Made by a program: the position numbers and the translations under genes. The notes beneath the pieces are model-generated. The model made no database searches. It saw only the letters and a list, made by a program, of their open reading frames with translations, and was not told where the DNA came from. 64,000 nucleotides of DNA from Corynebacterium genitalium ATCC 33030 (GTDB lineage: Bacteria > Actinomycetota > Actinomycetes > Mycobacteriales > Mycobacteriaceae): assembly GCF_000143825.1 (NCBI RefSeq), contig NZ_CM000961.1, forward strand, positions 310,001-374,000, written 5' to 3'. Of the stretch, positions 1,793 through 62,627 are shown in pieces (positions within the stretch are counted from its first letter, which is position 1; the number at the start of each line of letters is the position of its first letter).

Positions 1793-3441
1793 TTCTTCAG
1801 CTGCTCCGCCAAATCGCGCCTGGTCGCGCGCGTGGTCACGGCCTCAATCACAGTCACGGGCTCGTGCTTATCGACGCCATCGACCAGGCACTCCACCAAT
1901 TCCTGCGTCGTCTCGGCCCGGCGGTACGCGACACCGTATGCGTCTGCGAGGGCGGCGATGTCAACGTCGTGAGGCGTGCCGAACGCCATCTCGAAGTTCT
2001 CGCGCAACGGTTCAGCACCGGGTTCGAGAGCCTCGAAGATCCCGCCGCCGTTGTCGTTGGCCACAACGATGGTGAGGTTGCTCGGACGCGGCTGCGGCAG
2101 GTCGTGGCTGCCGATGAGCAACCCGCCGATGTCGTGCAGGAAGGTCACGTCGCCGACGAGTGCGACCGTGCGCGGGGCGCGCAGCTCATCCGGGTGCAGT
2201 GCCTGCGTGGCCAGAGCAATGCCGACTGCCTGGGACACTGTGCCGTCGATGCCGGCAGCACCCCGGGCGGCGTAGGTGGACACGCCGTCGAAAGGCAGGC
2301 CGACCAAGCTGGCGTCGCGCACCGGGTTCGACGACCCGAGCACCAACGTGTCCCCCACCGCTAACGTGTCGCCCACCGCTGCGGCGGCATGCAGGCCGGT
2401 GAAACCGTATTGCTTGTCCTCGAGAGCGTCGCGGACTGTCTGGGCGCCGACGTCGCCAGCAGCCTCGCAAATCTTGAGCCACTGATCGGTCGGTTGTCCG
2501 GTGACGTTCACTCTGCTGCCGCGGCGGGCAGGGTTGCCCGTGAACGCCTCCGTGCGCGACAGCCCGATGACCTCAATGGTGTTGTCCGCCATGAGCGCCA
2601 GCACATCGCGGTGCAGCGTTGGGTGGCCGACCACAATGACCTGGTCCGGCTTTGTCGACGCGGCGAAGTCCCCGCCGTCGTGGCTCACCGCCACCTCATC
2701 CTGAGTGAAAAACCGCGCCGCCAAGGGGTGCACCTGGTGGAATGGGGTCGGGGCGGTCGGTTCGGCAATCGTGGGTATGTGCTCAAGTCCGGGGACCTCC
2801 CAGGCCTCGTCACCGGCAATGACCAGTGTGTTCAAAGTCAGGTCGACATCGACCGCGCCGTGGTCGACAAAACCTGCCCCGCCCTGCAGCCGCCCAGGGC
2901 CGACAACCCGGCGCGGCGTCCCCACCGGTTCCGCCAGCGCCTCCGGCACGAGCGGGGTATCCAACGCGACATTGATATGCGCGGCGCTGCTGCCGCCCGC
3001 GTCCGCGTCTAGCTCGATCGGGTCACCCACCGCGGCGACCTGCTGTGTCGCGGCGTAGCGGCCGAAGATGCCCTGCTGCCAGATCGTCTGCGATGCGCCG
3101 GTGCCCACCAGCCGCTCCGGCCGGTCCGCACTGACCACGAGCAGCGGGGTGTGCGACATGTGCGCCTCGATGACGGCCGGGTAGCAGTTCGCCACCGCAG
3201 TTCCCGAGGTCATCACCACCGCCACCGGCCTGCGTTGCACACGCGCGAGGCCGAGGGCGAGGAAGGAGGCGGCGCGTTCGTCGATACGCGAATGGACAGT
3301 GACGTCCCTGCGCGCCAGAAACGCGTACGCCAACGGCGAGTTGCGCGAACCCGGGCACAACACGACATCCGTGACATGCCCGGCGACCTCTTCCGCGACG
3401 TAATTCGCGACGGCGATTGCCTCTACTGCAGAATCCGCCAT
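1789..3441 (-). CDS. menD: 2-succinyl-5-enolpyruvyl-6-hydroxy-3-cyclohexene-1-carboxylate synthase
   Basis: This is MenD, the thiamine-diphosphate enzyme that joins isochorismate and 2-oxoglutarate at the start of the menaquinone branch. Its 550 residues match the usual MenD length. The N-terminal domain has [12 protein letters not shown] (about 31-42) and [14 protein letters not shown] with the catalytic-type Glu of the ThDP fold. The C-terminal cofactor domain shows GDVTFLHD and [14 protein letters not shown]. The ATG shares its first base(s) with the upstream stop (TAATG), so it is coupled to the 226-residue membrane protein. The downstream DUF3592 gene overlaps by 4 bases. Confidence 0.95.
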
Positions 3442-4121
3442 TACTGCCCCGACCCAAACAGATCGTCGAGGAAGCCCTGGATCTCGCTAACGACGCCTTC
3501 CGCCTCGTCTTGCAGCTCAGGCGGAATCTCAGTCGGAACCTCGGAGGGAAGGTCATCCGGCAGGTCAGACGGGATGGTCACCTGGGGATCACCGTCGGAG
3601 TTGCGGCCGAACAGGCCGTCGAGCAGACCCTCCGGGGTCGTCGTCACTGTCTCTGTCTCCGTGAGGGTCACCGGTGCCGGCGGCGGCTGGTTCGCACGGC
3701 CCTCCGCCCCGCGCCACAAGAAGAACAAGACAAGGGCTGCCAGGGCCAACAGCAACGCGGTGATGCCCATGGCGACGCCGCCGGCCCTGCCGCCGCGCTG
3801 CGGCTGCTCGTAGGGCTCGGGATCGCTGTAGGCCTGGCGGTCGCGCGGCGGGCGGTACGGCTGCTCGTAAGGTTCGGGATCGCCGTAGCCCTCGTAACCT
3901 TCATAGCCGCCGTATCCGTCGTAGCTGTCCTGCCCGCCGTACTGGGTGTGGCCGCCGTACTGCGTCTCCGGGTACGCAGCCTGGTAGGTCGTCTCATCCG
4001 GCATGTACTGCCGTGGCCCCTTCTCGCGGGGCTGGAACTGTGCAGTGCGGTCGTCGGCGCCGAGGAACTCGGTCTCATTATTCGAGCCGTCGCGGCGGGT
4101 CTGATCATCCATGGGCCACAT
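3441..4121 (-). CDS. Single-pass membrane protein with Tyr/Gly/Pro-rich cytoplasmic domain
   Basis: This is a 226-residue protein I cannot assign to a named family. Residues 1-112 are hydrophilic and rich in Tyr, Gly, Pro and Glu, with short degenerate repeats ([17 protein letters not shown] twice). One strong membrane segment follows at about 114-138 ([19 protein letters not shown]). The C-terminal part is acidic and Pro-rich with VTLTETETV and several Pro-Glu pairs. The start has a good GGGGGA ribosome site 5 bases upstream. It precedes menD with a TAATG overlap. The layout resembles actinobacterial envelope proteins whose repeats act in protein contacts, but this is only a resemblance. Confidence 0.7.
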
Positions 4122-4166
4122 CGTAGTCCCCCGGCGATCTGAGACCTACCGCGGTGAAGCGGCGGC

Positions 4167-5750
4167 CTACAGCACCAGGCCGAAGACAGGCACCGCCAGG
4201 AAGTAGGTAGCCAGGGTGATGATCACCACGGCGATGACGTTGAGCCAGATACCGCCCTTGATCATCTGCCCCATGGTGACGTAGCCGGAACTGTAGGCAA
4301 TCGCGTTCGGCGGGGTGGCCACCGGAAGCATGAACGCGCATGTGGCGGACAGGGCGACCGGGATGGTCAGCAGCATGACGTTCATGTCCCCGCCCGATGT
4401 CAGGCCGATGCCGGTGGCGACACCGCCCATGATCGGCAAGAACGTCGCGGCCGTCGCCGTGTTGGAGGTCAGCTCCGTCAGCAGCAGGATGAGCACAGCC
4501 ACTGCGGCGATGAGCAGGATGACCGGCAGACCTGCAAGAATCTTCGCCACTTCACCGACCCACAACGACAGGCCCGTCTTGGTGAACATCGCCGACAGCG
4601 ACAGACCGCCGCCGAACAGCAGCAGCACATCCCAGGGGATGTCCTTGGCGGTCTCCCAATCCAGCAGGCGGATGCCGTTGAGTTTGCCCGGGATGGTGAA
4701 CAGCAACAACCCGGCGATCATGCCCACGCTCGCATCGGTGTAGGGGAAGTCCCAGCCGAAGGTCTCCATCCCCAGCGGGATGAACACCCAGGCCAGCGCT
4801 GCAGACACGAAGATCACACCGGCGAGGATTTGGCCGGGGGTCCAGCGGCCGATCTTCTTCAATTCGTCGTCGATAAGCTCTTTGCCCCCGGGGATCTCGT
4901 CGATCTCGGGCTTGAACACATTGATCAGGATGACCCACGCAAGCAGCGTGAACAGCACCGCAATGGGCACACCGAACATCATCCACTTGCCAAAACCGAT
5001 CTCGATACCGTGCGATTCCTTCATGTAGCCGGCCAGCAGCAGGTTCGGCGGCGTACCGATCAGCGTGCCCAGCGAGCCTGTCGACGCCGAGTACGCAATG
5101 CCCAGCATCAGCGCCGTGGCGAAGTTCTTCTGCTTGTCCATGCTGCCCAGCTGCTCCGCGGTGAGAGTGAGCACGGAAACACCGATCGGCAGCATGACCA
5201 CGGCCGTGGCGGTGTTGGACACCCACATCGACAGGAAGCCGGTGGCCACCATGAAGCCCAGGATGATGCGCTTCGGGGACGTACCGATGAGCTTGACCAC
5301 CCACAGCGCAAGCCGGCGGTGCAAGTTCCACCGTTGCAGACCCAGCGCAATCATGAATCCGCCCATGAACAGGAAGATCGTGTCGGACGCGTACGGGGCG
5401 CTGACTTCCTTGAACTCGGCGACGCCCATGATCGGGAAGATGGCCAACGGAATCAGCGCAGTGGCGGCGAGCGGGATCGCCTCCGTCATCCACCACACCG
5501 CCATCCACACCGCGACTGCAGCCACGATGCGCATTGCCTGCGCGGAGTACTCTTTCTCAGCGTCAGCACCGGCGGACCGGGCTACGGTGTCAGCGGCGCC
5601 GTCCGGGAACAACAGGTAGATGACCACTGCCGCCGCAAGCCCGACAAACAAGCCGATGACCTGGCGGCGCCAGTCCTTGCGTTCCGGCGCGGTGGCGATG
5701 TCGCCTTCCGCGAACTGAGTGGAATCGTGAGTTATCGCTGTTGCTGGCAT
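4167..5750 (-). CDS. DASS (SLC13) family sodium/dicarboxylate symporter
   Basis: This 527-residue polytopic protein carries the two Ser-Asn-Thr motifs of the divalent anion:sodium symporter family: VSNTATAVVMLPI near 180 and TSNTATAATFLPIMGG near 430. It also has the conserved segments GGFMIALGLQRWNLHRRLA and TPPNAIAYSSGYV. Known relatives in C. glutamicum import succinate, fumarate or malate with sodium, so C4-dicarboxylate uptake is the likely role. The proposed ATG lies only 3 bases after the menC stop without a clear ribosome site, suggesting coupled translation; a slightly later start is possible. A decamer copy lies at 4868. Confidence 0.88.
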   Translation of the reverse strand: MPATAITHDSTQFAEGDIATAPERKDWRRQVIGLFVGLAAAVVIYLLFPDGAADTVARSAGADAEKEYSAQAMRIVAAVAVWMAVWWMTEAIPLAATALIPLAIFPIMGVAEFKEVSAPYASDTIFLFMGGFMIALGLQRWNLHRRLALWVVKLIGTSPKRIILGFMVATGFLSMWVSNTATAVVMLPIGVSVLTLTAEQLGSMDKQKNFATALMLGIAYSASTGSLGTLIGTPPNLLLAGYMKESHGIEIGFGKWMMFGVPIAVLFTLLAWVILINVFKPEIDEIPGGKELIDDELKKIGRWTPGQILAGVIFVSAALAWVFIPLGMETFGWDFPYTDASVGMIAGLLLFTIPGKLNGIRLLDWETAKDIPWDVLLLFGGGLSLSAMFTKTGLSLWVGEVAKILAGLPVILLIAAVAVLILLLTELTSNTATAATFLPIMGGVATGIGLTSGGDMNVMLLTIPVALSATCAFMLPVATPPNAIAYSSGYVTMGQMIKGGIWLNVIAVVIITLATYFLAVPVFGLVL

Positions 5751-5753
5751 GAA

Positions 5754-6788
5754 TCAAACATATGCCATACAGCGCCTCAGACGATAAAACCACCAGTCTT
5801 TTCTTATCGACGACGCCCGCAAACCCGCCACCCTATCCGCATCCGGCGCGAACAACTCTGTCGGATTGATACTGATGCGCCCCTCCACGATGGGGAATGG
5901 GTCAGCGACATCCTCAATGAACAGCCGTTGCGTGGCCAGCCCCGCCGCCTGCGAGCCCACCGCCGCCGCGGCAACGAGCCCGGCGTGAATCCCCACCGCA
6001 GTGTCCAGGGCAGAGGCCACCGTGATCCGCAGGTCTAGGTCGCGGGCGATCCGCGTGAGGTTGCGCACCCCGCCGAGTGGTGCGACCTTGCACACCGCCG
6101 TATCCGCTGCCGCCAGCTTGACCACGCGGTACGGGTCCGCCACCTTCCGAATCGACTCATCCGCCGCAATCGGCGTGCTCACTTTGCGGCGGACTTCTGC
6201 GAGCTCCTCCGCGGTGCGGCACGGCTGCTCGATGTATTCCAAATACCCGCCGCGCGCGGTTCCGGTCGAGCCATCCGACGCGCCTTCCCCAGGCGGGAGG
6301 ATCTCTTCGAAAGCCCGCGCGGCGGCGATCGCTTCCTGCACGGTCCAGGCGCCGTTGGCGTCGACACGCAGCACGGCATCGGGGCGCAGCTCGTGGACGG
6401 CTCGAAGACGCGCGACATCGTCCGCGAGCGCCTGCCCAGGCTCAGCGACTTTGATTTTGAACGTGCGCACGCCTTCGAAGCGGGCGAGGACGTCAGGCAC
6501 CTCGTCGGGTGTCACCGCGGGAATGGTGCCGTTGACCTCCACTTCGCTAGGGCCACCCAAACCCTGGTATCCCTCGTAGGCGGCTTCGAGCCCGGCGCGC
6601 AGCCAGGCCGCCGCTTCCTCGTCGCTGTACTCGAGGAAGGGGGAGAACTCGCCCCAGCCTGCGGGGCCGTCGATAAGCAGGGCTTCGCGCGTGGTGATGC
6701 CGCGGAACCGCACCGCCATCGGCAGCGAGACAACGTGGGCGCGGTCGAGAATGTCGTCAGGATCCGGCAGAAAACTATTCCCAAGCAC
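5754..6788 (-). CDS. menC: o-Succinylbenzoate synthase
   Basis: MenC is an enolase-superfamily enzyme that dehydrates SHCHC to o-succinylbenzoate in menaquinone synthesis. Visible catalytic motifs are FKIKV (acid/base Lys), VDANGAW, EQPC and ADES (metal ligands) and VCKVAPLGG (second Lys). The GTG at 6786-6788 is chosen (344 residues) because homology begins with PDPDDILDRAHVVSLPM; the longer ATG frame would read through a separate 36-codon gene. The GTG lies inside the end of that small gene, so coupling is likely. The C-terminus (DWWFYRLRRCMAYV) is an odd Trp/Arg-rich tail and contains a decamer copy just before it. Confidence 0.9.
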   Translation of the reverse strand: MLGNSFLPDPDDILDRAHVVSLPMAVRFRGITTREALLIDGPAGWGEFSPFLEYSDEEAAAWLRAGLEAAYEGYQGLGGPSEVEVNGTIPAVTPDEVPDVLARFEGVRTFKIKVAEPGQALADDVARLRAVHELRPDAVLRVDANGAWTVQEAIAAARAFEEILPPGEGASDGSTGTARGGYLEYIEQPCRTAEELAEVRRKVSTPIAADESIRKVADPYRVVKLAAADTAVCKVAPLGGVRNLTRIARDLDLRITVASALDTAVGIHAGLVAAAAVGSQAAGLATQRLFIEDVADPFPIVEGRISINPTELFAPDADRVAGLRASSIRKDWWFYRLRRCMAYV

Positions 6789-7294: not shown

Positions 7295-8497
7295 CTAGAG
7301 CACCAAGCTCAGGCCCTGGAAGGTGGCCACGGCGAGCAGCCAGGCGAGTGCTAACTGGCCGACGAGGCCGATCGCGGTCCACTTCCATCCGATCTCGCGA
7401 CGTTGCGCGGCCAACGTGGCCACGCACGGGGTGTAGGCGAGCAGGAAGATCATGTAGGCCCACACGGCGGCCAGGGTGTTGCCCCCGGAGGTCTCTTCGA
7501 AGTCCGCGCGCACGGCCTGGGCGAGCGGGGATGCGCCCTGCTCCTCTGGGGCCGCGTCGGTAACGTCCTCGAGGTCGTAGGTCTGGGCCCACGTGGCGAT
7601 GAGAGCCTCTTTGGCCAGGAAGCCGGTGACCAGCGGGCCGGTGAGCGACCACGAGTCGAAACCGGCGGGCTCGAACACCGGCGCCATGGAATCGGCGACA
7701 ACGCCGTAGAGGGAATCTTGGGGCGCCAAGTCCTCATCACCCCAGCTGTGCCCCGGCGCAGCGGGGGTAGACAGGAGGAACCAGATCACCACGACCGTGG
7801 CCACGATGATCCCGCCCGCGGTCTGCAGGAAGCCTTTCAGGCGGCTCCACATCACCGAGAAGCTCAAGCGCGCTGTCGGACACTGGTAGACGGGCAGGTC
7901 AATGACCAGCGGGTCGGAGCCCATCGTGCGCCACAACGTCGTGCGCAACAACAGCCCGGAGGCCACCACCAGCGCGATCGAGATGACGTACATGGCGAAG
8001 ACGACCAATCCGGCATGCTCCGGGAAGAACGTCTGCGCCAGCATCACGTACACCGTCGAGCGCGCAGAGCAGGACGTGAACGGCACCAGTAGCGCGGTCA
8101 ACCTGCGCTGTTCCGGGGTGGCCAAAACGCGCGTGGCCGAGATCGCCGGCACGTTGCAGCCAAAACCCACGATAAGCGGGATGAACGCCTTGCCCGGCAA
8201 CCCGATCGCCCGCATGAGTCGGTCCGCGACGACCGCGGCCCGAGCCATGTAGCCGGAGTCCTCCAACACCGCCAAGCAAAGGAACATCAACGCCATCAAC
8301 GGCACGAAGGTGAGCACCATGCCGACGCCGTTAATGATGCCGTCGACAAGCAAGCCCTCCACGAACGGGTAATTGAGACCGACCGCAGCAAGCCCGGCGC
8401 GCGCCCAATCGGAACACGGGCCCAGCACGAAGTCCTCGAGCAGGCTTTGCAGCGGCGCCGCCACCGTCGTGGTGATTTGGAAGACAGCGAACCGCCT
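7295..8497 (-). pseudogene. feoB: FeoB remnant: permease half only, GTPase domain missing
   Basis: About 398 codons encode the C-terminal membrane half of the ferrous iron transporter FeoB. They include LEDSGYMARAAVVADRLMR, PLIVGFGCNVPAISATRVL and PFTSCSARSTVYV (the two Gate motifs with Cys), and the closing helices with KEALIATWAQ. Homology begins abruptly at AVFQITTTVAAPLQ, where the first permease helix should be completed. Upstream the frame stays open only because it runs antisense to menB. The N-terminal G domain (normally about 170 residues with GNPNxGKT) and its linker are absent on either strand, and no feoA is nearby. There is no clear start codon or ribosome site at the junction. 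A deletion fusing to the menB promoter side is the simplest reading. Confidence 0.8.
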
Positions 8498-8527: not shown

Positions 8528-9448
8528 ATGACCTACACCACAGAACAGCCCTTCGACCCGTCGCAGTGGCGCAGCGTCGGGGAGTTCACCGACATCACCT
8601 ACCACCGCCACGTGGGCGAAGGCCGCGAAAACGGCATCGTCCGCATCGCGTTCAACCGCCCCGAGGTACGCAATGCGTTCCGTCCGCACACTGTCGACGA
8701 GCTGTACCGCGCACTCGACCACGCGCGCCGCGACCCTTCCGTAGGAGTGGTGTTGCTCACCGGTAACGGGCCGTCGCCGAAGGACGGCGGTTGGGCGTTC
8801 TGCTCCGGCGGCGACCAGCGCATCCGCGGCCGCAGCGGCTACCAGTACGGCGACGACGACAACCAGGTGGACACCGCGCGCGTCAAGGCCGAGGGCGGGC
8901 GGTTGCACATTCTCGAGGTCCAGCGCCTCATCCGCACGATGCCGAAAGTGGTCATCGCGGTGGTGGGCGGCTGGGCAGCCGGCGGCGGGCACTCGCTGCA
9001 CGTTGTGTGCGACATGACCATCGCCTCGCGCGAGGAAGCCCGCTTCAAACAGACCGATGCCGACGTGGGCTCCTTCGACGGCGGCTACGGTTCCGCCTAC
9101 CTGGCAAAACAGGTCGGCCAGAAGTTCGCGCGCGAGATCTTCTTCCTCGGCAGGGAGTACTCCGCTGAGGACATGCACCGCATGGGCGCGGTCAACATCG
9201 TGTCGCCACACGGTTCGCTCGAAGACGACGCCATCCAGGTCGCCCGCGAAATCAACGGCAAGTCGCCCCAAGCACAGCGGATGCTCAAATTCGCATTCAA
9301 TTTGCTTGACGACGGCCTCATGGGCCAACAGGTCTTCGCCGGCGAAGCCACCCGCCTGGCCTACATGACCGACGAAGCCGTGGAAGGCCGCGACTCCTTC
9401 CTACAAAAGCGCCCACCGAACTGGGAAGACTTCCCCTTCTACTACTAG
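8528..9448 (+). CDS. menB: 1,4-Dihydroxy-2-naphthoyl-CoA synthase
   Basis: MenB is a crotonase-fold enzyme that closes the second ring from o-succinylbenzoyl-CoA. Its 306 residues are typical. Motifs seen: RIAFNRPEVRNAF near 40, the oxyanion-hole regions CSGGDQRIRG near 93 and GGWAAGGGHSLHVVCD near 150, SFDGGYGSAYLA near 185 and the conserved C-terminal PNWEDFPFYY. The ATG at 8528 (MTYTTEQPFDPSQW) fits the family start; an in-frame ATG at 8447 would add residues without homology, encoded opposite the feoB remnant. It converges with the ABC permease gene, overlapping it by 4 bases at the stop codons. Confidence 0.95.
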   Translation: MTYTTEQPFDPSQWRSVGEFTDITYHRHVGEGRENGIVRIAFNRPEVRNAFRPHTVDELYRALDHARRDPSVGVVLLTGNGPSPKDGGWAFCSGGDQRIRGRSGYQYGDDDNQVDTARVKAEGGRLHILEVQRLIRTMPKVVIAVVGGWAAGGGHSLHVVCDMTIASREEARFKQTDADVGSFDGGYGSAYLAKQVGQKFAREIFFLGREYSAEDMHRMGAVNIVSPHGSLEDDAIQVAREINGKSPQAQRMLKFAFNLLDDGLMGQQVFAGEATRLAYMTDEAVEGRDSFLQKRPPNWEDFPFYY

Positions 9449-11607: not shown

Positions 11608-12268
11608 AAATTCCGGCGCGGTGCGCCAACAGCACGAGCGCGACGCGGTCCCGCGCACCCAGCTTGACCAGCAGGTTTTTGACGTGCGTTTTCACGGTCG
11701 TCGGCGCGATGAACAGCCGCTGCGAGATCTCCGCGTTCGTCGCCCCGGCGGCGATCTCGGCGAGCACTTCCACCTCGCGCGCGGTGAGCATGGACAGCGC
11801 CTGCCGCTCGTAGTCGCTCAACGCATTCCGCTTATCGACGCCCCCACGCACCCACTCCAGCACCGCCCCCGTCACCCCACTCGCCAACACGGATTCACCC
11901 CTGTCGACGGCGCGAACGGCATCGGCAAGCACGTCCGGGTCAGCATCCTTGAGCAGAAAGCCGTGCACGCCGGCGGTGATGGCGGCTTGGACGAGCTCGT
12001 CGTCGTTGAACGTGGTCAGCATGATCACTTTCGGTCCGAGCGGCATGATTTTCTTCGCCGCGGTAATGCCGTCCATGACCGGCATGCGAATGTCCAGCAC
12101 CGCGATATCGATCCCACCCGCGCCAGCCTGTTGCACCCTGTCCACCGCGTCCACCGCTTCTTGCCCATTCGTGGCAGTGCAGACCACGTCGATGTCCGGC
12201 TGGGAATTCAGGATGGTGGCGAGGGCGGAGAGGAGGAGGGGTTGATCGTCGGCAAGCAGCAGGCGCAT
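11600..12268 (-). CDS. NarL/LuxR-family response regulator
   Basis: This 222-residue two-component regulator starts MRLLLADDQPLLLSAL with the acidic pair at 7-8. The phosphoacceptor Asp is near 59 in AVLDIRMPVMDG, and Thr/Lys switch residues appear in IMLTTF and FLLKDAD. The LuxR-type helix-turn-helix occupies about 155-215 (LTAREVEVLAEIAAGATNAEI, VKTHVKNLLVKL). The ATG at 12268 is chosen; it follows the kinase stop by 1 base (TGACATG), so the pair is coupled. The likely target is the ABC transporter downstream, given the shared inverted repeat. Confidence 0.9.
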   Translation of the reverse strand: MRLLLADDQPLLLSALATILNSQPDIDVVCTATNGQEAVDAVDRVQQAGAGGIDIAVLDIRMPVMDGITAAKKIMPLGPKVIMLTTFNDDELVQAAITAGVHGFLLKDADPDVLADAVRAVDRGESVLASGVTGAVLEWVRGGVDKRNALSDYERQALSMLTAREVEVLAEIAAGATNAEISQRLFIAPTTVKTHVKNLLVKLGARDRVALVLLAHRAGISS

Positions 12269-48943: not shown

Positions 48944-49816
48944 GTGAACCAACCTGTGTTTTTGGGCTTTCCATCTGACTCCCCCGCTGGAAAATCAATC
49001 CGTGCAGGCCATGAATTGCCACCTGATTTCCCGCACGAATGGTTCGAATTCGTCCACCCCGACGATCCATTGCACTACTTCTCCCTCGACCTCACGTGGC
49101 TGGAATCGACATGGTCGTGCCGCTTCGGCACACCGCAGTGCCGCGGCATTTCACAAGAACTCCCAGTCGTTGGGTGCTGCATCCACGGTGCCTACCTGTC
49201 GGACGAGCACGACCGCGACGACCTTTACAACGCTGTCGCCGACATGCCCGCACGGTTCTGGCAGCTGCGCCCCGACGACGTCGACAGCTATATAGAGGCA
49301 GCCGACCCGACCGAGTTGGAGCCGTGGCTCGAGTGGGACGAGGACGATGAGGAACCCTCCATCAAAACAAAGCTTGTCGACGGAGCGTGCATCTTCGCCA
49401 ACCGCCACGGCCACCCCACCGGCCCCGGGTGCGCACTGCACCAGTGGGCAATGGATGAAGGCCGCAACATCATCGGTTCAAAACCGGAAGTGTGCTGGCA
49501 GGTGCCATTTTCCCGCGAAGACTCGTGGGAGGAGCGCGGCGACGGCCAAGAAATCCTGCGCACCACCATCGGCGAGTACGACCGCCGTCAGTGGGGCGAC
49601 GGGGGCGAAGACTTCGACTGGTGGTGCACCAACGACCCTGCCTGCCACTCTGGCTCGAGCACTGCGGTTCCTGTGTGGAAGTCGATGAAAGACGAGTTGA
49701 CGCAGTTGATCGGTGCGGAGGCATACGGGATCGTCGCAAAGCATTGCGAAGCCCGCGCCGCACTACCCGCAGAAGCGAAGGCCGTGCACCCGGCGACCCG
49801 CGCCGCACAATCGTGA
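48944..49816 (+). CDS. Conserved Cys-rich actinobacterial protein (Rv0495c position)
   Basis: This 290-residue soluble protein has an unusual number of Cys for a corynebacterial cytoplasmic protein. Pairs or singles occur in [12 protein letters not shown] near 51-62, [10 protein letters not shown] near 69-78, [20 protein letters not shown] near 144-163, [14 protein letters not shown] near 222-231 and KHCEARA near 267. Together with several His this suggests a metal site or iron-sulfur cluster. It resembles conserved proteins found beside regX3 and ppx in mycobacteria. Function is unknown. It is convergent with regX3, 19 bases apart. Confidence 0.75.
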
Positions 49817-50537: not shown

Positions 50538-51736
50538 TGCTGCTCCTTATTGTCCAACTCGGCGATCTCTGTGGGAACGACCGTTGCACTCGACGGGTCC
50601 GGTTTGTGCACCGGCAACTCGATCGTGAACGTTGATCCCGTTCCCAAACGCGACCACAGCTTGATATTACCGCCATGGTTTGCCACGACGTGCTTGACGA
50701 TGGCCAAACCGAGCCCCGTCCCGCCCGTCTGTCTCGACCGCGCCTTGTCCACGCGGAAGAAACGCTCGAACACACGCTTCTGGTCTTCCGGCGCGATACC
50801 AATGCCGCGGTCAGTGACGCGGATGAGCACCACCGAATCGCGGACGACTTTTTGGCTAACGCTGACTGGCTGACCTTTCGGCGAGTAATTGATCGCGTTT
50901 GTGATCAGGTTCGACAGAGCCGTGACCAACAGAGACTTGTCTGCCATGATCATTGTGTCGGTGCGTTCGCCGCGGTTGAGCTCGATCTCTTGGTTTTCGG
51001 CAGTGAGAAGGTTGCGTTCCATCGCTTCGTCGATGATCTCGTCGACGGTCACGGCGGCCATTTCCGGGAGCGCTTCAGCACCCTGCAGCTTGGACAGATT
51101 GATCAGGTCGGTGATCATTGCGCCCATGCGTTGAGCTTCCCCGACCAGTTTCTCACCGAAGTAGGTGACCATCTCCGGGTCGTTCGGGTCCTCCAGCAGA
51201 GCCTCGGCCAGCAACGACATGCCGCCGACGGGGGTTTTCAGCTCATGCGAGACGTTCGCCACGAAGTCGCGGCGGGCGGATTCCATGCGCACATTTTCAG
51301 ACTCGTCCACCGAGTACACGATGATGTAGCTGTTCTCCGACAAAGTCAGCGGCTGCACCACCGCGCGCACGTTGTTCACGCGGGAGCCGGTCGAGCGGTG
51401 CTTGAGGTTCAATTCCAAGACGCGGGTCTCTGCGTCCTCAAACACTTGCTTGCCGACGCCCCACACCTCCGGGTTCAGCGTCCTGTCATGCACAATCGAC
51501 ATCTCGTGGGCGCGGCCGTTGGACAGGATGACGTCGCCTTTTCTGCCCACGACAGTGACACCGGTCGGCGACCCCTGGATGACCAAGTGCAGGATCTGGC
51601 TGACTGTGCGGACTTGGTTGTCTGCGGGGTTGTCGCTGGTACGGGTACGCCCCCGCCAGCGGCGGAGCCACGTGGTTCCGCCGATCGCGAGGGCGACGAC
51701 AATGCCTCCCGCAAGGAAGGCGAGAACGTAATTCAC
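50534..51736 (-). CDS. senX3: Sensor histidine kinase SenX3
   Basis: This 400-residue kinase has one membrane helix at 3-22 (AFLAGGIVVALAIG), a PAS-like domain near 45-140, HisKA with phosphoacceptor His in FVANVSHELKTPVGGM near 160-175 and HATPase boxes NLITNAINYSPKG, RVTDRGIGIAPEDQ and GGTGLGLAIVKHV. The single anchor and PAS domain fit SenX3, which works with the phosphate transporter rather than an outside sensor domain. The GTG start lies 7 bases after GATAAT, suggesting a leaderless transcript. Confidence 0.92.
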   Translation of the reverse strand: MNYVLAFLAGGIVVALAIGGTTWLRRWRGRTRTSDNPADNQVRTVSQILHLVIQGSPTGVTVVGRKGDVILSNGRAHEMSIVHDRTLNPEVWGVGKQVFEDAETRVLELNLKHRSTGSRVNNVRAVVQPLTLSENSYIIVYSVDESENVRMESARRDFVANVSHELKTPVGGMSLLAEALLEDPNDPEMVTYFGEKLVGEAQRMGAMITDLINLSKLQGAEALPEMAAVTVDEIIDEAMERNLLTAENQEIELNRGERTDTMIMADKSLLVTALSNLITNAINYSPKGQPVSVSQKVVRDSVVLIRVTDRGIGIAPEDQKRVFERFFRVDKARSRQTGGTGLGLAIVKHVVANHGGNIKLWSRLGTGSTFTIELPVHKPDPSSATVVPTEIAELDNKEQQ

Positions 51737-52592: not shown

Positions 52593-53870
52593 GTGGCTTA
52601 TGTTCTTCATGTGATTACTCGTCGTATTTTCTCTCCCGCCGTCGTGCTGGCTTTCGCGTTCAGCACTCTCACCCTCGCCACCGCCACTGAGGCAGCACCG
52701 CAGGCCCATGCTGACACGGGCGCTGCAGCTGCTCCCGGCGCGCCCATGCGCGTGCTGCCGTATGACCCCGAATTCCCGTTTGGCCCCGATGTCAGCGTCG
52801 AAGAAGCCACGGGCATGGATATGCCGCCGGAGGCATTCACTCTCGCCTGCAGCCAAGGCCCCATTGGTGATGTGCTTCTGCCTGATGGCACGACCCAGCG
52901 CATCATGGTGACCGCTGGCCACTGCGTCGTCGGTGACACCGAGACCGGCCTGCTGCTGGGCAGCGATGTCTACGCACCCACGCGCGACGGCTACGAACGC
53001 ATCGGCGCAACCGGCATGGTGCATTTCCAAGGCGGGGCGCCGGTGAATCCCCTCGCGATCCCGGAAACGGCGATGACCACGGTTGACTGGGGCATCGTGG
53101 TGCTTGACGACGACACTGCCGTCGACGGTTCCGCCTCCTCCAAGGACAAGGCGAACCGCAACGGCTCCACCCCCGTGACGCTGACCGGTGTGCGCGACTA
53201 CCGCACGCTGCGCCCGGGCGAGGTCTCCTTCGACAACTTCGGCCAGCCGATCTGCAAGGACGGAATGATCGGCGCTCGCAAGTGCGGTTACCAGCTGCTC
53301 TACACGGCGGACAACGTCTGGCACGTCTCGCTGGATTACAAGCACGGCGACTCGGGCGGGGTGAACTTTGACCCCTCCACCGGTCAGATCATTGGCGTGT
53401 CCTCCCTCGGCGTGGGTCCGCTGGGCACTGCGCAGCGCGCTGACCGCGCCATCGAGCTCGCCTACGACGTTCCGGACGGCCAGGTCAACGACTACTTCAC
53501 CCCCGCTGCTCCGAACCAGCCGCGTGCAGAGTTCGTCTCCATGGACGAAGAAGACAACGCTGTCGACTCCTACATCCTGGAGAACAACCCGGATGTGGCC
53601 CCGGAGGATCTGGTTCCGCCCACCAACCAAGAGGTCTTCGGCATGGTGGTTGAGTCCGCTCAGCAGGATGCCGCTGTCATCGGCGCAGAGGCGCAGACGC
53701 TCGCCGCTGGCTCGGCCGTGGCTGTCGCCACTGGACAGGCAACGGTTCCGGAGGTTGCCTCCGCCGCCAATGAGTTCGCCACCGAGGTGGGAACGGCCGC
53801 CACGGCCTACGGCAATGCCCTGTCCAATGTCGGCTTCCAGTGGGCGCTGGAGGAACTCGGTTACGAGTAA
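52593..53870 (+). CDS. Secreted trypsin-like serine protease
   Basis: This 425-residue exported protein has an N-terminal signal peptide (VLAFAFSTLTLATATEAAPQ, cleavage probably after AHA). The catalytic triad is visible: His in MVTAGHCVVGD, Asp in TTVDWGIVVLDDD and Ser in KHGDSGGVNFDP. The C-terminal 100 residues form an Ala/Val/Glu-rich helical tail (SAQQDAAVIGAEAQTLAAGS) of unknown role. The start is GTG 52593 or GTG 52611; TAGAAT at 52576-52581 suggests a very short leader. It is convergent with mshA and not part of a secretion cluster. Target unknown. Confidence 0.85.
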   Translation: MAYVLHVITRRIFSPAVVLAFAFSTLTLATATEAAPQAHADTGAAAAPGAPMRVLPYDPEFPFGPDVSVEEATGMDMPPEAFTLACSQGPIGDVLLPDGTTQRIMVTAGHCVVGDTETGLLLGSDVYAPTRDGYERIGATGMVHFQGGAPVNPLAIPETAMTTVDWGIVVLDDDTAVDGSASSKDKANRNGSTPVTLTGVRDYRTLRPGEVSFDNFGQPICKDGMIGARKCGYQLLYTADNVWHVSLDYKHGDSGGVNFDPSTGQIIGVSSLGVGPLGTAQRADRAIELAYDVPDGQVNDYFTPAAPNQPRAEFVSMDEEDNAVDSYILENNPDVAPEDLVPPTNQEVFGMVVESAQQDAAVIGAEAQTLAAGSAVAVATGQATVPEVASAANEFATEVGTAATAYGNALSNVGFQWALEELGYE

Positions 53871-53875: not shown

Positions 53876-55147
53876 CTACTCCCCCGTGGCGTCCCTGTGA
53901 TCCATGGGGGTGAACCCCTCTAGCACCTCGTCGTACACCTGCGAGAGTGCTTCGGCTGACGCCGCCCAACTGAACGTGGCAGCCCGTTTCACGGCGGCGG
54001 TGGCCATGGTGAGGCGGGTGGAGTCGTCGATAAGCAACTGCTCGAGCGCGTCCGCCCACGCGTCGGGAGCGTGACCGTCGACAAGCACTCCCGTTTCCCC
54101 GTCCGCGACGGCCAGAGGCAGACCGCCCACCCGCGCCGCGACGACTGGCGTGCCCGCGGCCTGCGCCTCGATGGCGACAAGACCGAATGACTCGTTGTAG
54201 CTGGGCACCGCGACAATATCTGCGGCCTGGTAGATCTGGACGAGCTCTTCTGGCGGGCGCGGCCCCAAGAAGCGAACCTTGCGGCCAATGCCCAGCTTAT
54301 GGGCCATCGCACGGTAGAAGTCGACCGATGAATCCGCACCCGACGCGCCACCGCACATGATGATGCGCACGTTGCGGTCCGGGTCGCGGTCGAACAATTC
54401 CGCAGCCGCCCGGATAAGCACCTGCGGCCCCTTGAACTCCTGCATGCGGCCCACGAACGCGATCACTTTGCTGTCCAACGGGATGCCCAGGTGGCGGCGG
54501 GCAAGCTCCGTGTTGCGGTTCGTGCCCGGCGTGAACAGGCGCGTGTCAGCGCCGGGGGTGACCACGCTGATCCGCTCAGGCTCGGCATCGTAATAGCGGA
54601 CTAGCTGTTGGGTCTCGTCAGCAGTGTTGACCACGATGCAATCGGCGTTGTCCACGAGCTGCTGCTCGCCAATGCGGCGGGCCTCCGTCTCTGGGGAATC
54701 CGAGTCCGCCGCAGCTTCGCGCGCCGCGTTCTTCACCGCCGCCCACGTGTGACCAGTGTGGATCAGCGGCACCCCGGCAAGGTCACGCAACAGCCACCCC
54801 ACCTGGCCGGAGAGCCAATAGTGGGAATGGATCAGGTCGTAGGGACGGCCTTCCTGCCGGACAAACTGCATCACACCACCGGCGAAGGCGGCGAGCTGGG
54901 TGGGCAGCTCTTCTTTGGCCAGACCCTCGTAAGGGCCGGCGACGACATTGACCACCCGCAAATTCTCGCTGACGCGCACCACCTCGCCCTGGCTGGGCCT
55001 CGTCGCACGGGTGAACACGTCCACCTCGGTGCCGCTTGCTGCGAGCTCGCGGGCGATGTTGAGAATGTAAACGTTCATCCCGCCAGCATCGCCGGACCCC
55101 GGCTGCTCCAGCGGGGAGGTGTGCATAGAGATCATGGCCACGCGCAT
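53876..55147 (-). CDS. mshA: D-inositol-3-phosphate glycosyltransferase (mycothiol synthesis)
   Basis: This 423-residue GT4 enzyme joins N-acetylglucosamine to inositol 3-phosphate, the first committed step of mycothiol. It begins [20 protein letters not shown] with [15 protein letters not shown], contains [40 protein letters not shown] and [20 protein letters not shown]. These are hallmark MshA segments. The ATG at 55147 is chosen; longer frames lack homology. A decamer is at 54025 and its one-base variant at 54076. Confidence 0.95.
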
Positions 55148-55157: not shown

Positions 55158-56219
55158 CTATCGCGCGTGCTTATGCCACTGCCCGAAGTCGCTGGCGACA
55201 GTAGCCGCGAGCTCGCGGTATGCCTGCATTGTCCGCGGGTGCAGGCGCGCAATGTCGACCACGGCACCTTCAGCAAGGTGCGGGTCATAAGGAATCACGT
55301 GCACGGCCCGGGTCCGCGCGCCGAAGTGCGCGACCACACTGTCCATGTTCACCGGCGACTTCGGCGTGGCCGACGACACCACAACGACCGCGTTGGCCGC
55401 GAGCCTGTCATAACCGTGCAGGTTGAGCCAGTCCAAAGTCGCCGAGGCGGACTGTGCGCCGTCGAGAGCCGGCGAGCTGACCAGGATCAACGTGTTGGCC
55501 AAATCCAACACGCCCGCCATGGCAGAGTGCATCAGCCCTGTCCCGCAGTCAGTGAGGATGAGGTTGTAGTGGTGCTGCAGGATGTCGACGGCACGGCGGT
55601 AGTCGTACTCGCTGAACGCCTCCGACACGGCCGGGTCGCGTTCGGAGCCAATGACTTCGAGGCGGGAAGCCCCTTGCGTGGTAAACCCGCGGACGTGCGC
55701 GTACCGCGACGTGTCTGAGGCCGCGAGTAGATCGCGGATCGTCGCTGGGCCCGGCGCGGCGACACGTTGGGCCAAGGTGCCGAAGTCCGGGTTCGCGTCA
55801 ATGGCGATCACCCTGTCACCGCGCGATTCCGCCAATACCGACCCCAACGCGACCGTCGTTGTCGTCTTGCCCACCCCGCCCTTGAGCGACATTACCGCGA
55901 TCCGGTAATCGCCCCGCAGCGGAGTGCGCATGGCTTCCTCTAACGTCGCGGCCGCCAATTCTTTGCGAGAGGCACCGGGATTGATCCGTCCACCCGAGGC
56001 ACCATGGACGAGCTTGCGCCACCCTTTCGCCGGGGGTGCTTTGACGCCGCGCACGACGTTTGCCTGGTCGAGGCTCTGCGGCGCTCGCTTGTGGCTTTCA
56101 GCATGCTTATCGACGGACCCCTGCCCCGCCTCAGCTCGCACCTCCGGCTGCGGGACGGGCCCATCCGGCACCCACTCCCCCAGCCCGGTGTTGGCGTACT
56201 TCTGGTACAGATCGGTCAT
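55158..56219 (-). CDS. ParA/MinD-like ATPase, EspI-type
   Basis: This 353-residue protein has a disordered N-terminal region of about 100 residues rich in Pro, Glu and Lys. A deviant Walker A motif [17 protein letters not shown] follows near 109-125, then [13 protein letters not shown] and [11 protein letters not shown]. This matches actinobacterial MinD-like ATPases related to EspI of ESX secretion clusters, but no ESX gene is in the window, so the role (protein positioning or regulation) is open. It ends 10 bases upstream of mshA. A decamer at 56106 lies in the disordered part. Confidence 0.8.
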
Positions 56220-58669: not shown

Positions 58670-59746
58670 CTAATCGATGGACACGCCGATCCAGACCGGC
58701 TCCGGCTCGAGTGTCACGCCGAACTTGTCCTGCACACCCGCGCGGATGGTGCGGGCCAGGGCGACAATGTCGTCGGCGGTAGCGGTGCCGCGGTTGGTCA
58801 GCGCGAGAGTGTGCTTGGTGGACAGCCGGGCGGGAGCGTTGGGATCGGCGTCGCCGGGGAAGCCACGGGGGAAGCCGGCGCGCTCGATAGTCCAGGCGGC
58901 GGAGAGCTTCACGGCCCCATCAGGGTGTTCCCCAGACGCGGGCACCGGGTAGCGGGGCATGGTGTCGCCCTCACCCGGCGCGACGTCATTGACCAGCGCG
59001 GCAACCCGGTCCGCAACAGCCGGGGTCACAATCGGGTTGGTAAAGAAGGACCCGGCGGACCAGGTGTCGTGGTCTGCGGGGTCGAGGACCATGCCTTTGG
59101 AGGCGCGGACGCGGAGGATCTCTGCGCGGGCGTCGGCAAGCGGGAGGCGCTCACCACCCAGGTGGCGCAGCGGGATGGAGAGTTCGGACGGCTCGAGCTG
59201 CATCTCGATCTCCAGGACAACGGCACGGCCGGTGAATTTCAGGTTGGAGTAGCGGTACGCCAGGTCGAGCTCGCTGGCGGGGACCCACTCGTCTTCACCG
59301 GTTTCGCGGTTGTACAGGCGCACACCGGTGAGCACGTCGGAGACCTCGGCACCGTACGCGCCGACATTCTGCACCGGGGTCGCACCGGCGGACCCGGGGA
59401 TTCCCGACAGCGTCTCAATGCCGGACAGCCCGGCCGCGACAGTTTGCGCGACCACGTCGTCCCACACTGCCCCGGCCCCGGCGCGGACCGCGCCCGGCAC
59501 ACCGTCTGCGTTGACCGTCACGTCGTCATTCGCCGCAAGGACTACGTCGAGATCCAGATCGCCCTCGGCCACCACGAGGTTCGAGCCACCGCCGACGATG
59601 ATGAGGGGGGTGGTGGAAGCGTCGAGAAGCGAGACGGTGCGTGCGAGCTCATCTGCTGTTTCCGCGCGGTGCACCGCACGTGGCACGCCGCCGACGCGCA
59701 GCGTGGTGAGATCCTTGAAGCTTAGGGGCGCTAATGATTCAGACAC
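58670..59746 (-). CDS. murB: UDP-N-acetylenolpyruvoylglucosamine reductase
   Basis: This 358-residue MurB (FAD enzyme) completes UDP-MurNAc synthesis for peptidoglycan. Motifs: TTLRVGGVPRAVHRA near 16, IIVGGGSNLVVAEGDLD near 52, SGIPGSAGATPVQNVGAYGAEV near 112 and WSAGSFFTNPIV near 238 with the proton-donor Ser. The GTG at 59746 (MSESLAPLSFKDL) is chosen; the longer frame runs antisense into the DUF2505 gene. Divergent starts are 24 bases apart, so both promoters overlap. Confidence 0.94.
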   Translation of the reverse strand: MSESLAPLSFKDLTTLRVGGVPRAVHRAETADELARTVSLLDASTTPLIIVGGGSNLVVAEGDLDLDVVLAANDDVTVNADGVPGAVRAGAGAVWDDVVAQTVAAGLSGIETLSGIPGSAGATPVQNVGAYGAEVSDVLTGVRLYNRETGEDEWVPASELDLAYRYSNLKFTGRAVVLEIEMQLEPSELSIPLRHLGGERLPLADARAEILRVRASKGMVLDPADHDTWSAGSFFTNPIVTPAVADRVAALVNDVAPGEGDTMPRYPVPASGEHPDGAVKLSAAWTIERAGFPRGFPGDADPNAPARLSTKHTLALTNRGTATADDIVALARTIRAGVQDKFGVTLEPEPVWIGVSID

Positions 59747-60262: not shown

Positions 60263-60297
60263 TTTCGCACGCTCGCGAACGAGACACCCCTAGAAAT

Positions 60298-60349
60298 GGC
60301 CGACCACGCCCATAATCTGCGCGCGCAGACTGGGCATGGTCGGCCTTTT
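60298..60349 (+). terminator. Strong terminator after the DUF2505 gene
   Basis: GGCCGACCACGCCCA (60298-60312) pairs with TGGGCATGGTCGGCC (60331-60345), 14 of 15 pairs, with an inner CTGCGCGCGCAG hairpin and a TTTT run. It overlaps the longer possible 5-prime end of the methyltransferase gene, so that extension is not coding. Confidence 0.8.
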
Positions 60350-60352
60350 GGC

Positions 60353-61111
60353 GTGATCACCCGCGGCACCACCGGGTATAACCGCCTGCGCCGCTCCGAC
60401 AGGTGGACGCGCTACCACCCGCAGGTCCAGTCACTGTTGCGCGCGGAGCCTGCGCCTGTGCTTATCGACGTCGGCTACGGCGCCTCCCACACCACCACCG
60501 TCGAATGGGCCCGCTGGATGCGCCAGATCAACCCTTCTGCCCGCGTCATCGGGCTCGAGATCGACCCGGATCGGGTGCTTCCGCCCCGCGACGGCGTGAC
60601 CTTCGAACTCGGCGGGTTTGAACTGGCCGGTTACCAACCCCACTTAGTCCGGGCGTTCAACGTGCTGCGCCAGTACGACGTCGCGGATGTGGAGGCGGCC
60701 TGGGCATCCGTCTGCGGGCGGCTTGCCCCGGGCGGGCTGTTCATCGAGGGCACGTGCGACGAGTTGGGTCGCCGTGCAGCGTGGGTGCTGCTCAGCGCGA
60801 CTGGACCGGAGTCGTTGACGTTGGCGTGGGACCCGGAGGACGTCGATAAGCCGAGCGACGTCGCCGAACGCCTGCCGAAGGTGCTCATCCACCGCAATGT
60901 CCCCGGTGAACCCATTCATGCGCTGCTCTCGGCCGCAGACGCTGCCTGGGAGCGCTCCTCCGGGTGGGCGCCGCACGGCCCGCGAGTCCGCTGGCGGGAG
61001 GCACGCGCGCTTTTGCTTGCCGACGGCTGGCCCCTCGACCCCATCCGCCGCCGCATCCGCGACAACACTCTCACGGTGGGGTGGGACATCGTCGCGCCAA
61101 GTAACCAGTAA
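60353..61111 (+). CDS. Class I SAM-dependent methyltransferase-like protein
   Basis: In this protein the SAM-binding motif is LIDVGYGASHTTTVEWARWM near residues 37-56, followed by VIGLEIDPDRV and LAPGGLFIEGTCDE near 125-138. The GTG at 60353 (252 residues) is chosen because the ATG at 60296 lies at the foot of the DUF2505 terminator, whose hairpin would otherwise be coding. The substrate is unknown. Two decamers occur, one coding LeuIleAsp in the SAM motif itself (60460) and one coding ValAspLys (60841). Confidence 0.72.
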   Translation: MITRGTTGYNRLRRSDRWTRYHPQVQSLLRAEPAPVLIDVGYGASHTTTVEWARWMRQINPSARVIGLEIDPDRVLPPRDGVTFELGGFELAGYQPHLVRAFNVLRQYDVADVEAAWASVCGRLAPGGLFIEGTCDELGRRAAWVLLSATGPESLTLAWDPEDVDKPSDVAERLPKVLIHRNVPGEPIHALLSAADAAWERSSGWAPHGPRVRWREARALLLADGWPLDPIRRRIRDNTLTVGWDIVAPSNQ

Positions 61112-61195
61112 TCTTGGGGTGTACAGCCACTTCACAGCGGATTCCTCCGGTGGCATGTTGGCAAACGGCATAGAACTCAACCAGAATGGCTTTCC

Positions 61196-62002
61196 ATGAC
61201 ACGCAATTACCCTGCGGGCCCGGCTGGCTCCAGAGGCTCCACCGGGAAAGGCTGGAAAATCGCCTTCGGCATCATTGCCGTCATCTTGGTGCTGTTCTTC
61301 ATCGCTGAACTAGCGCTGCGCTGGTTCATCACCGATCAGATAGAGACCAGTCTGCGGGAAAGTGCGCCCGAAAGCGTCGCCGCCCAACAGGACGCCGAGG
61401 TCCACTTCGGCGCCATGCCCGTTGTCTTCGGGCTGGTGCAGGGCAAACTCCACCAGATCAATATCGATGTGCCGTCCACGCTCACACCGGATAGCAACGC
61501 CATTGTGGGCAACCCGCCGGCGACCATCAACGCCACCGGCTTCGTCCTCGACTCCGAGGATCCGAGTGCGGACGAACTCACCCTGTCCACCGAAGTACCC
61601 AAAGCCCTCGTCCGCGACATGCTGCAAAAAGAGCTGGGTAATGCGCTGGAGGAATCCAACGAAGGCCGGTTCGCCGAGTACAACGAGATCCTCACCGTCT
61701 CCGACGTGGACACCAACCCCGCCGACGGAACCTTCAACATCACGTTCTCCAACGGCGCGTTCGGGGTCGAGCTCCGCCCGGAGATCGTCGATAACCAACT
61801 CTCCTTCACGGCCGTGTCCACCCAGATTCTCGGCCGGAACCTACCGGACTTCTTCTCCGAGGCAGTCAGTGCCGCACTCGAAAGCGGCATCAACGACCAG
61901 GTAGCCGGGCCGCTGGAATTCCGCGAGTTCTCCGTCATCGACAACGGGTTCAAGATCGTTGTCTACGGCCACAACGTGCACCTCAACGAACTAGCCGTGT
62001 AG
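61196..62002 (+). CDS. LmeA-like DUF2993 phospholipid-binding protein
   Basis: This 268-residue protein has a short basic N-terminus, one membrane anchor or signal (about 22-42, KIAFGIIAVILVLFFIAELA) and an outside beta-rich domain with DQIETSLRESAP near 46, KLHQINIDVPSTL near 90 and DGTFNITFSNGAFGVELRPE near 180. This fits DUF2993/LmeA, a periplasmic lipid-binding protein needed for lipomannan elongation in mycobacteria. The ATG lies 8 bases after a CAGAAT -10 candidate, and no ribosome site is seen. Confidence 0.82.
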   Translation: MTRNYPAGPAGSRGSTGKGWKIAFGIIAVILVLFFIAELALRWFITDQIETSLRESAPESVAAQQDAEVHFGAMPVVFGLVQGKLHQINIDVPSTLTPDSNAIVGNPPATINATGFVLDSEDPSADELTLSTEVPKALVRDMLQKELGNALEESNEGRFAEYNEILTVSDVDTNPADGTFNITFSNGAFGVELRPEIVDNQLSFTAVSTQILGRNLPDFFSEAVSAALESGINDQVAGPLEFREFSVIDNGFKIVVYGHNVHLNELAV

Positions 62003-62018
62003 CCTGCGCGCACCGCAG

Positions 62019-62627
62019 CTACACGTATACGCGCGCGGCGCCTGCCAGCAGCAGGTCCAGCGCAGCGTCCAACGTGGGGATGGTGCCGTAAAAGGCTGTT
62101 TCGCACGCGAGCCCATTCAGCGCAGGCGGCTCGCTTGATTCCCTGAGCTCCACCGCGAGGAGATCGACTCCCCCACGCTGGGCCACGGCGTCCAGCTGGG
62201 TGATGGCATCCACCCCCACTGCGGCGGGGCACGTCACCCCAAGCCGCGCGCGGGAATCCACGACTTGGCGCACAGCAATGATGTCTGCGAGCACGGCGTT
62301 CAAGCCATCCGTGGTGCCGACCAATGTGTCGTCGATGGCCAACCAGACCTCGGTCGCTCCTTCATCTACGGCAAGGCGCGCCTCGGCGGCTTTGATCAGG
62401 CTGTGGTGGCGGCCCGTCGGCCACCCGATGAGAGCGATGACGCTGCCCATACCGTCGCCCGTGCCCGTGTTCGGTGCCGCAGCTTGGGCGGTGACGCCGG
62501 TGGGTTCGACGATGTGGCCGGCGCGTGCGACGTCGATAAGCGACGCGAACTCTTCATCGCTGACCCTACCGCTGAGAACGCGGTTGCGGCCGACGCGCGG
62601 GGCGAGCCAGGTGAGATCGTCGGTCAC
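62019..62627 (-). CDS. Deoxyribose-phosphate aldolase-like protein lacking catalytic residues
   Basis: This 202-residue TIM-barrel-like protein has an N-terminal half that resembles DeoC (VIALIGWPTGRHHSLIKAAE followed by ARLAVDEGATEV). The segments that carry the Schiff-base Lys (usually LKTSTGF) and the second Lys (VKASGG) are missing, replaced by ARLGVTCPAAVGVD and VDLLAVELRESSEPP. The C-terminal TLDAALDLLLAGAARV resembles the end of DeoC. It is about 20 residues short and probably not an aldolase. Its start overlaps the DUF2516 gene by 4 bases, suggesting an operon. Confidence 0.65.
   Translation of the reverse strand: MTDDLTWLAPRVGRNRVLSGRVSDEEFASLIDVARAGHIVEPTGVTAQAAAPNTGTGDGMGSVIALIGWPTGRHHSLIKAAEARLAVDEGATEVWLAIDDTLVGTTDGLNAVLADIIAVRQVVDSRARLGVTCPAAVGVDAITQLDAVAQRGGVDLLAVELRESSEPPALNGLACETAFYGTIPTLDAALDLLLAGAARVYV

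Follow-up and report, generated by a model that had tools for sequence, protein, structure and literature searches.

In the Neisseriaceae, a DNA uptake sequence (DUS) of 10–12 bases with ComP as its receptor has been described (PMC6370729, PMC12616744), and two species are reported to carry 943 and 4,265 copies of it, with dialects that follow phylogeny around an invariant core (PMC3630211). The uptake signal sequence (USS) of the Pasteurellaceae is described as a short core word with two dialects and many copies, and the own DNA is preferred (PMC12616744, PMC1939737). In Micrococcus luteus, natural transformation by a Tad/Flp pilus is described together with tad genes, ComEA and ComEC (PMC4322843). 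Here we analyzed a window of 64,000 nucleotides from Corynebacterium genitalium ATCC 33030 (bases 310,001–374,000 of NZ_CM000961.1, the one contig of 2,349,853 bases that makes up this 2.35-Mb genome), in which an earlier note, made from the letters of the window, had pointed out a scattered 10-base word, CTTATCGACG. This word is the commonest form, in the source genome, of a bipartite element, GCTT-NN-CGAYG. By analogy with DUS and USS, we consider that the element is probably a DNA uptake sequence, here working with Tad pili. Among the matches listed in the openly licensed PMC literature, there was no report of the word or of a Corynebacterium uptake sequence.

The element resembles the published picture of DUS and USS, in which a word of 9–12 bases has some thousand copies or more and forms dialects around a fixed core (PMC3630211, PMC12616744, PMC1939737). 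It differs from DUS in its sequence, in its two-base variable centre and in belonging to a genus that carries Tad pili; moreover, its dialects fit phylogeny only in part. From USS it differs in sequence and in phylum, and USS clusters as close pairs whereas the Corynebacterium word shows no excess of pairs. The machinery class (tad genes, ComEA, ComEC) is the same as in M. luteus, and both are actinobacteria, but the term "uptake sequence" is absent from the main text of the M. luteus paper (PMC4322843). In one Arthrobacter genome the 10-base word had 9 copies (control, 9) and in one Micrococcaceae genome it had 4 (control, 1), so it is abundant in neither.

Abundance, shape and codon context of the word

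A recount of the window agreed with the 28 exact copies of CTTATCGACG given in the earlier note, 15 on the plus and 13 on the minus strand, where 100 dinucleotide shuffles gave a mean of 0.06 and a maximum of 1. A G stands directly 5' of the word in 24 of the 28. The word is not confined to the window: the whole genome holds 547 copies, 273 forward and 274 reverse, compared with 5 (3 + 2) of the same word read backwards; reversed words served as controls throughout. The window is about two-fold richer in exact CTTATCGACG than the genome average (28 copies at positions 1866–62541 versus 14.9 predicted). In a 384-kb sample of the genome, consisting of the window and 16 stretches of 20 kb, there were 112 copies, 89 of them within genes called by a crude gene caller whose genes cover about 81% of the sample. 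Shuffling of synonymous codons within these genes left an expectation of 5.5 copies (200 shuffles, maximum 13), and the word therefore exceeds a codon-aware expectation.

Counts of the one-base neighbours of CTTATCGACG showed that position 4 is free and positions 1, 2 and 5 are partly free, and changes at positions 6–10 are rare (0–2 each). Forms whose third base is changed to give common codons, CTC-ATCGACG and CTG-ATCGACG, were depleted, with 4 and 3 copies against 12.6 and 13.6 expected. A gapped-word search that presupposed no motif and used 20–100 kb per genome ranked CTT..CGACG or CTT..CGATG (or the reverse complement) first or second in 7 of 11 genomes that carry the element, hereafter carriers (G110, G031, G001, G099, G006, G144 and G027 in our numbering of genomes). 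On the basis of the neighbour counts and the gapped search, the element was taken as GCTTNNCGAYG. The 10-base word of the earlier note is genuine and is the commonest spelling of a bipartite pattern, which occurs 1,567 times in the whole genome versus 111 for its reversed control. The window contains 56 copies, 24 of them with AT as the inner pair; in the 384-kb sample there are 281, with inner AT in 106 and C at the Y position in 274.

The earlier note had held that selection or copying acts here on DNA rather than on protein, and both codon choice and synonymous shuffles support this. In the called genes of the 384-kb sample, the leucine before ATC-GAC-G is encoded by CTT in 51 of 57 cases, as against 855 of 9,654 leucine codons (9%) overall. 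Similarly, GAT is used in 24 of 24 instances of GTC-GAY-Lys versus 67 of 292 instances of GTC-GAY without a following lysine. When the genes of the source genome were shuffled synonymously 100 times, the 231 observed copies of GCTTNNCGAYG exceeded every shuffle (mean, 27.7), and all 100 shuffles were also exceeded in G110 (19 versus 0.9), G144 (33 versus 5.9), G006 (19 versus 2.5), G053 (8 versus 0.9) and, narrowly, G048 (10 versus 4.3). No such excess of GCTTNNCGAYG was found in G014, G041, G062, G120, G147 and G010. The word thus overrides codon choice and acts at the DNA level. In orthologous DNA of about 75% identity, the word was kept in 49 of 113 site comparisons, which share sites and hence are not independent, versus 9–15% for other 9-of-11 matches, indicating that individual sites come and go at a steady total.

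The placement of all copies in coding sequence held for 26 of the 28 window copies, which lie wholly within called genes. However, 231 of the 281 copies of GCTTNNCGAYG in the sample (82%) are in called genes that make up about 82% of its bases, so the coding location mostly reflects coding density. The four codon phases proposed earlier need correction, since five frames are in use among the 89 in-gene copies of CTTATCGACG: 50 are in sense frame 0 and 3 in each of the other sense frames, and two antisense frames account for 25 and 8.

With the origin placed at 600–620 kb by a DnaA-like motif and the terminus assumed to lie opposite, 140 of 270 copies of GCTTNNCGAYG (384-kb sample minus the origin stretch) were co-oriented with replication. 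This agrees with the lack of polarity already noted. FtsK-orienting polar sequences (KOPS) are short dispersed chromosomal words that are polar towards the terminus, a polarity that the Corynebacterium word lacks. No origin–terminus density trend was apparent by eye over 17 stretches (9–19 copies per 20 kb; no statistical test). Gaps between copies are slightly more even than random, with a coefficient of variation of 0.83 that derives partly from short stretches, and close pairs are not in excess (15 gaps of <100 bases versus 19.6 expected).

On the plus strand of the window, GCTTATCGACG, the exact word with its leading G, lies at 1866..1876, 11830..11840, 14149..14159, 14266..14276, 15054..15064, 28986..28996, 30356..30366, 32504..32514, 38239..38249, 42568..42578, 56105..56115 and 60460..60470, and CTTATCGACG without the leading G lies at 5803..5812, 22610..22619 and 25277..25286. 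On the minus strand, GCTTATCGACG is found at 4868..4878, 6668..6678, 15316..15326, 17577..17587, 24206..24216, 26429..26439, 33461..33471, 38528..38538, 46117..46127, 54025..54035, 60841..60851 and 62531..62541, and CTTATCGACG without the leading G at 29397..29406. Variant spellings that match GCTTNNCGAYG are interspersed with these exact copies. GCTTGTCGACG occurs at 997..1007, 8341..8351, 39703..39713, 41735..41745, 43985..43995 and 54076..54086 on the minus strand and at 28146..28156, 44569..44579 and 49372..49382 on the plus strand; GCTTGACGACG at 9304..9314 and 53102..53112 (plus) and at 16277..16287, 19116..19126 and 47760..47770 (minus); and GCTTGCCGACG at 40540..40550, 51448..51458 and 61015..61025 (plus) and at 12247..12257 and 59131..59141 (minus). 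Both GCTTCTCGACG (374..384, 36525..36535 and 59620..59630) and GCTTTTCGACG (20357..20367, 20855..20865 and 42179..42189) were seen on the minus strand. The remaining spellings are GCTTGCCGATG (11920..11930), GCTTAGCGACG (23324..23334) and GCTTTGCGACG (49732..49742) on the minus strand, and GCTTGGCGACG (16139..16149), GCTTAACGACG (23394..23404), GCTTTCCGACG (28572..28582) and GCTTGACGATG (50692..50702) on the plus strand. A scan of the window for RNA families and tRNA found none.

Distribution in the genus, dialects and phage DNA

The distribution of the element was examined in 151 Corynebacterium genomes and in 113 genomes from 30 other genera of the family. GCTTNNCGAYG reached at least 5 times its control in 110 of the 151 genomes (median 1,128 copies, range 320–1,969), 3–5 times in 5 and less than 3 times in 36, and the exact 10-base word had at least 40 copies and at least 8 times its control in 100. 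In the other genera, the ratio of GCTTNNCGAYG to control had a maximum of 2.67 and a median of 1.11. Three further members of the genus beyond the 151 comprised two carriers (G197 and G235) and one non-carrier (G218). In 13 outgroup genomes, which include Rhodococcus, Nocardia, Mycolicibacterium, Dietzia, Mycobacterium, Streptomyces, Nocardioides, Arthrobacter and others, the 10-base word had 0–14 copies. The word is therefore restricted to one genus among the genera scanned. Within this genus, the non-carriers include a clade with a distinct TadA and lineages that branch within or next to the carriers, such as G041, G062, G120, G132 and G133. Uptake specificity may have been lost repeatedly; alternatively, it may have been gained inside the genus.

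Species differ in how they spell the element. GCTT and CGA are kept as an invariant core, and the inner NN and the Y vary. The source genome, G071, G122 and G149 use AT with C at Y, G110 uses GCTT-G[TC]-CGACG, and G006, G053 and G144 use CTT-GC-CGATG. Among the matches listed, G099 and G102 show a wide inner mixture with C at Y, and in G111 the commonest spelling has GT with T at Y. A possible exception to the invariant core is the dialect of G048, tentatively: GATTGACGACG and GCTTTCCGACG were both prominent there in a Markov test, and only GCTTTCCGACG in the synonymous-shuffle test. In a TadA tree of 38 rows, G006, G053 and G144 group together, with the non-carrier G014 among them; in a LepA tree (22 of 26 genomes tried), G006 and G053 pair and G144 joins G110. 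The carrier or non-carrier label changes 6 times on the TadA tree and 3 times on the LepA tree, fewer than in nearly all shuffles. Dialect searches in the non-carriers G014 and G133 gave none that was clear, and a pooled synonymous-shuffle search of ten genomes of clade B and five other non-carriers returned no sharp word.

In two clade-B genomes, G147 (stretches L017-L019 and L071-L072) and G128 (L053-L054), words of the GGACGCCG type were weakly over-represented, about 2–4 times. The same G147 stretches contain the overlapping words GGTTTTTCACA and GTTTTTCACAC six times each, where almost none is expected; these are possibly a repeat of clustered regularly interspaced short palindromic repeats (CRISPR) or an intergenic repeat.

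A search for phage terminases found 13 places in 9 of the 151 genomes. Ten of these, in seven genomes, were used to examine the word in phage DNA; two of them score below the family cut-off, and one of the genomes, G129, is only an intermediate carrier. The stretches were fixed at 20 kb centred on the terminase, irrespective of prophage borders. They contain 22 copies of GCTTNNCGAYG versus 76.9 expected from each genome's own density, and the inner 12 kb contain 5 versus 46.2. The reversed control was as frequent as expected (7 versus 6.7), so base composition is not the reason for the depletion. A narrower pattern (CTTATCGACG or CTTGNCGAYG) went in the same direction, with 20 copies versus 55.3 expected. 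Judged on these terminase stretches, the word marks own rather than newly acquired DNA. In G112, terminases with identical scores lie on the chromosome (G112:C1:2122412-2122939) and on a second contig (G112:C2:20476-21003), which suggests either two copies of a phage or a phage that also exists in a free form.

Uptake machinery and the proposed role of the word

The source genome has a tad locus with ssd, tadA, two proteins with T2SSF domains (tadB and tadC), a Flp-type pilin with DUF4244, a TadE-like protein (a weak family match) and a minor pilin like Rv3654c that adjoins a DEAH helicase; comEA-comEC-holA is also present. ComEC and DprA were found in all 151 genomes of the genus. A Tad ATPase was matched in 148 of 151 at E<=1e-3, 142 of them above the curated cut-off; G024, G075 and G092 gave no match and G113 and G119 only a weak one, and all five are draft or incomplete assemblies. 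The source genome thus encodes a DNA-uptake machine composed of a pilus, ComEA, ComEC and DprA, and this is true of non-carriers too. Sampled tad loci of the non-carriers beside or inside the carriers match TadA, TadB, Flp, TadE and TadF.

Two features of the machinery were considered as markers of carriers and given up. ComEC frames are shorter than 640 amino acids in 93 of 107 carriers versus 8 of 36 non-carriers (length entered for 148 of 151), but this split follows phylogeny and ComEC length was dropped. Of ten sampled ComEC proteins, nine showed only the Competence domain in Pfam searches, one gave a sub-threshold DUF4131 match at its N terminus, and none had a lactamase domain. All 22 genomes with a near full-length TadA scoring 366–416 bits are non-carriers (split or fragmentary matches left out); TadA type was nevertheless rejected as independent evidence, since a gene-by-gene test of one member, G066, placed nearly all of its genes with its clade. 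In the TadA tree, the non-carriers G010, G015, G033, G054, G066, G095, G107, G128, G147 and G148 form one side, and the other 25 Corynebacterium TadA proteins fall together with the Rhodococcus, Nocardia and Mycolicibacterium sequences (long branches; rooted at the midpoint), which suggests that these ten have a Tad system that has diverged unusually far or has another origin. In G066, lepA (L048:14183-16072) is closest to carriers (90.5% to G006), and nearly all other genes compared, from two 20-kb stretches of this genome, have their nearest counterparts in clade B; judging from these identities, this lepA is likely a cross-species replacement.

As a DNA uptake sequence, the word would be a self tag: during natural transformation, it would be recognized at the cell surface while the DNA is still double-stranded. 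A sequence-reading receptor, for which a minor Tad pilin (TadE-like or TadF-like) and ComEA are candidates, would bind GCTT-NN-CGAYG and the pilus would pull the DNA in, after which one strand would reach the cytoplasm through ComEA and ComEC, to be recombined by DprA and RecA. DNA bearing the word would be imported more often, so that alleles with the word would spread until hundreds to thousands of copies are reached, mostly where synonymous change allows, with few in newly arrived phage DNA. Changes of the receptor might shift the inner NN and the Y and give rise to dialects. That the word biases uptake, which protein is the receptor, and that this drive operates are all inferred by analogy with the known systems.

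Several observations weigh against a role in uptake. ComEC and DprA are present in non-carriers as well, and TadA, TadB and Flp were matched in each of the 17 non-carriers sampled, so possession of the machinery does not predict the word. Conversely, the carriers G075, G113 and G119, whose assemblies are fragmented or incomplete, have no convincing TadA match, and in the carriers G021, G101 and G112 the match is only partial or split. An enrichment of the word in uptake genes, counted with the pattern CTTATCGACG or CTTGNCGAYG, was rejected both for the tad span (37 copies versus 32.8 expected in 17 genomes) and for comEA-comEC (9 versus 7.9 in 8 genomes). The gapped-word search did not return the word in the carriers G048, G029 and G150 and returned a shifted form in G053. 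In G048, GATTGACGACG would break the GCTT core, and it was not a leading word when synonymous codons were shuffled. Other old chromosomal words would also be depleted in phage DNA and structured by clade. The receptor is represented by candidates only (TadE, TadF and ComEA), by analogy with ComP, and we found no transformation of a carrier among the matches listed in the openly licensed PMC literature.

Two observations on the tad genes stand beside these. The 4.8-kb tad locus of the source genome contains five exact words versus 2.2 expected. In G101 (G101:C2:174454-175475) and G112 (G112:C1:297808-298844), tadA lies in two abutting pieces, none of them over the cut-off, as if it had been recently interrupted or misassembled.

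Alternative functions and significance for the genus

The main alternative to an uptake sequence is a Chi-like signal that stops a resection enzyme, of the AdnAB type and not RecBCD, and starts recombination. Like the Corynebacterium word, Chi sites are dispersed, non-palindromic and taxon-specific. The similar copy numbers of Chi words speak for this explanation; varying spellings and phage depletion also fit it. In addition, a PDDEXK_1 nuclease domain was found in 151 of 151 genomes, and many of the listed frames are about 1,000–1,100 amino acids long, the size of AdnA and AdnB. However, this domain occurs in carriers and non-carriers alike, RecC was found in 0 of 151 genomes, and, unlike Chi sites, the word is without replication polarity, showing no replichore orientation bias (140 of 270). 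Known Chi words are also shorter than this bipartite 9-of-11 word. In PMC4824097, it is stated as unknown whether AdnAB obeys Chi. Taken together, we consider a Chi-like signal unlikely.

A binding site for a nucleoid or chromosome-organising protein, which the earlier note had listed among its candidates, would agree with a word that is spread over the sampled chromosome on both strands and through most sampled genomes of the genus. Yet the density showed no trend by eye in the 17 stretches (9–19 per 20 kb) and there was no polarity, 36 of the 151 genomes of the genus stay below 3 times control, which would be odd for a housekeeping function of the chromosome, and the word is depleted around phage terminases. 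This explanation is improbable. We consider it highly improbable that the word is a modification target, a word kept by a methyltransferase in the manner of the highly iterated palindrome HIP1, or the product of a mutational drive without a reader. HIP1 of cyanobacteria, an abundant dispersed palindromic word of debated role, provides a precedent, but GCTTNNCGAYG differs from its reverse complement and is interrupted by a gap of 2 bases, species differ in its spelling, and codon preference is overridden at precise positions, unlike what a context-free mutation bias would give. A compositional or codon-usage artefact, which a GC-rich genome (65% G+C in the window) with common CG-rich pieces of the word might produce, is practically eliminated by the reversed control (5 versus 547) and by the synonymous shuffles (5.5 versus 89 and 27.7 versus 231).

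Of the functions that the earlier note had offered, these tests favour the DNA uptake or recognition word. Its nucleoid, chromosome-organising and modification candidates fared less well with a non-palindromic word that lacks polarity and a density trend, varies in spelling and is depleted around terminases.

We lean slightly towards a wider proposal, in which most sampled Corynebacterium species possess a genus-specific, dialect-forming uptake sequence that is read by a Tad pilus, and in which recombination by transformation has shaped the genus. Sequence-specific natural transformation would then have arisen independently a third time, and for the first time in a Gram-positive lineage. If true, such a third case, in another phylum and with another pilus, would show convergent evolution. 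It would also open the origin of uptake specificity to testing, could make laboratory Corynebacterium species easier to transform, and would provide a marker of past transformation that can be read from genomes.

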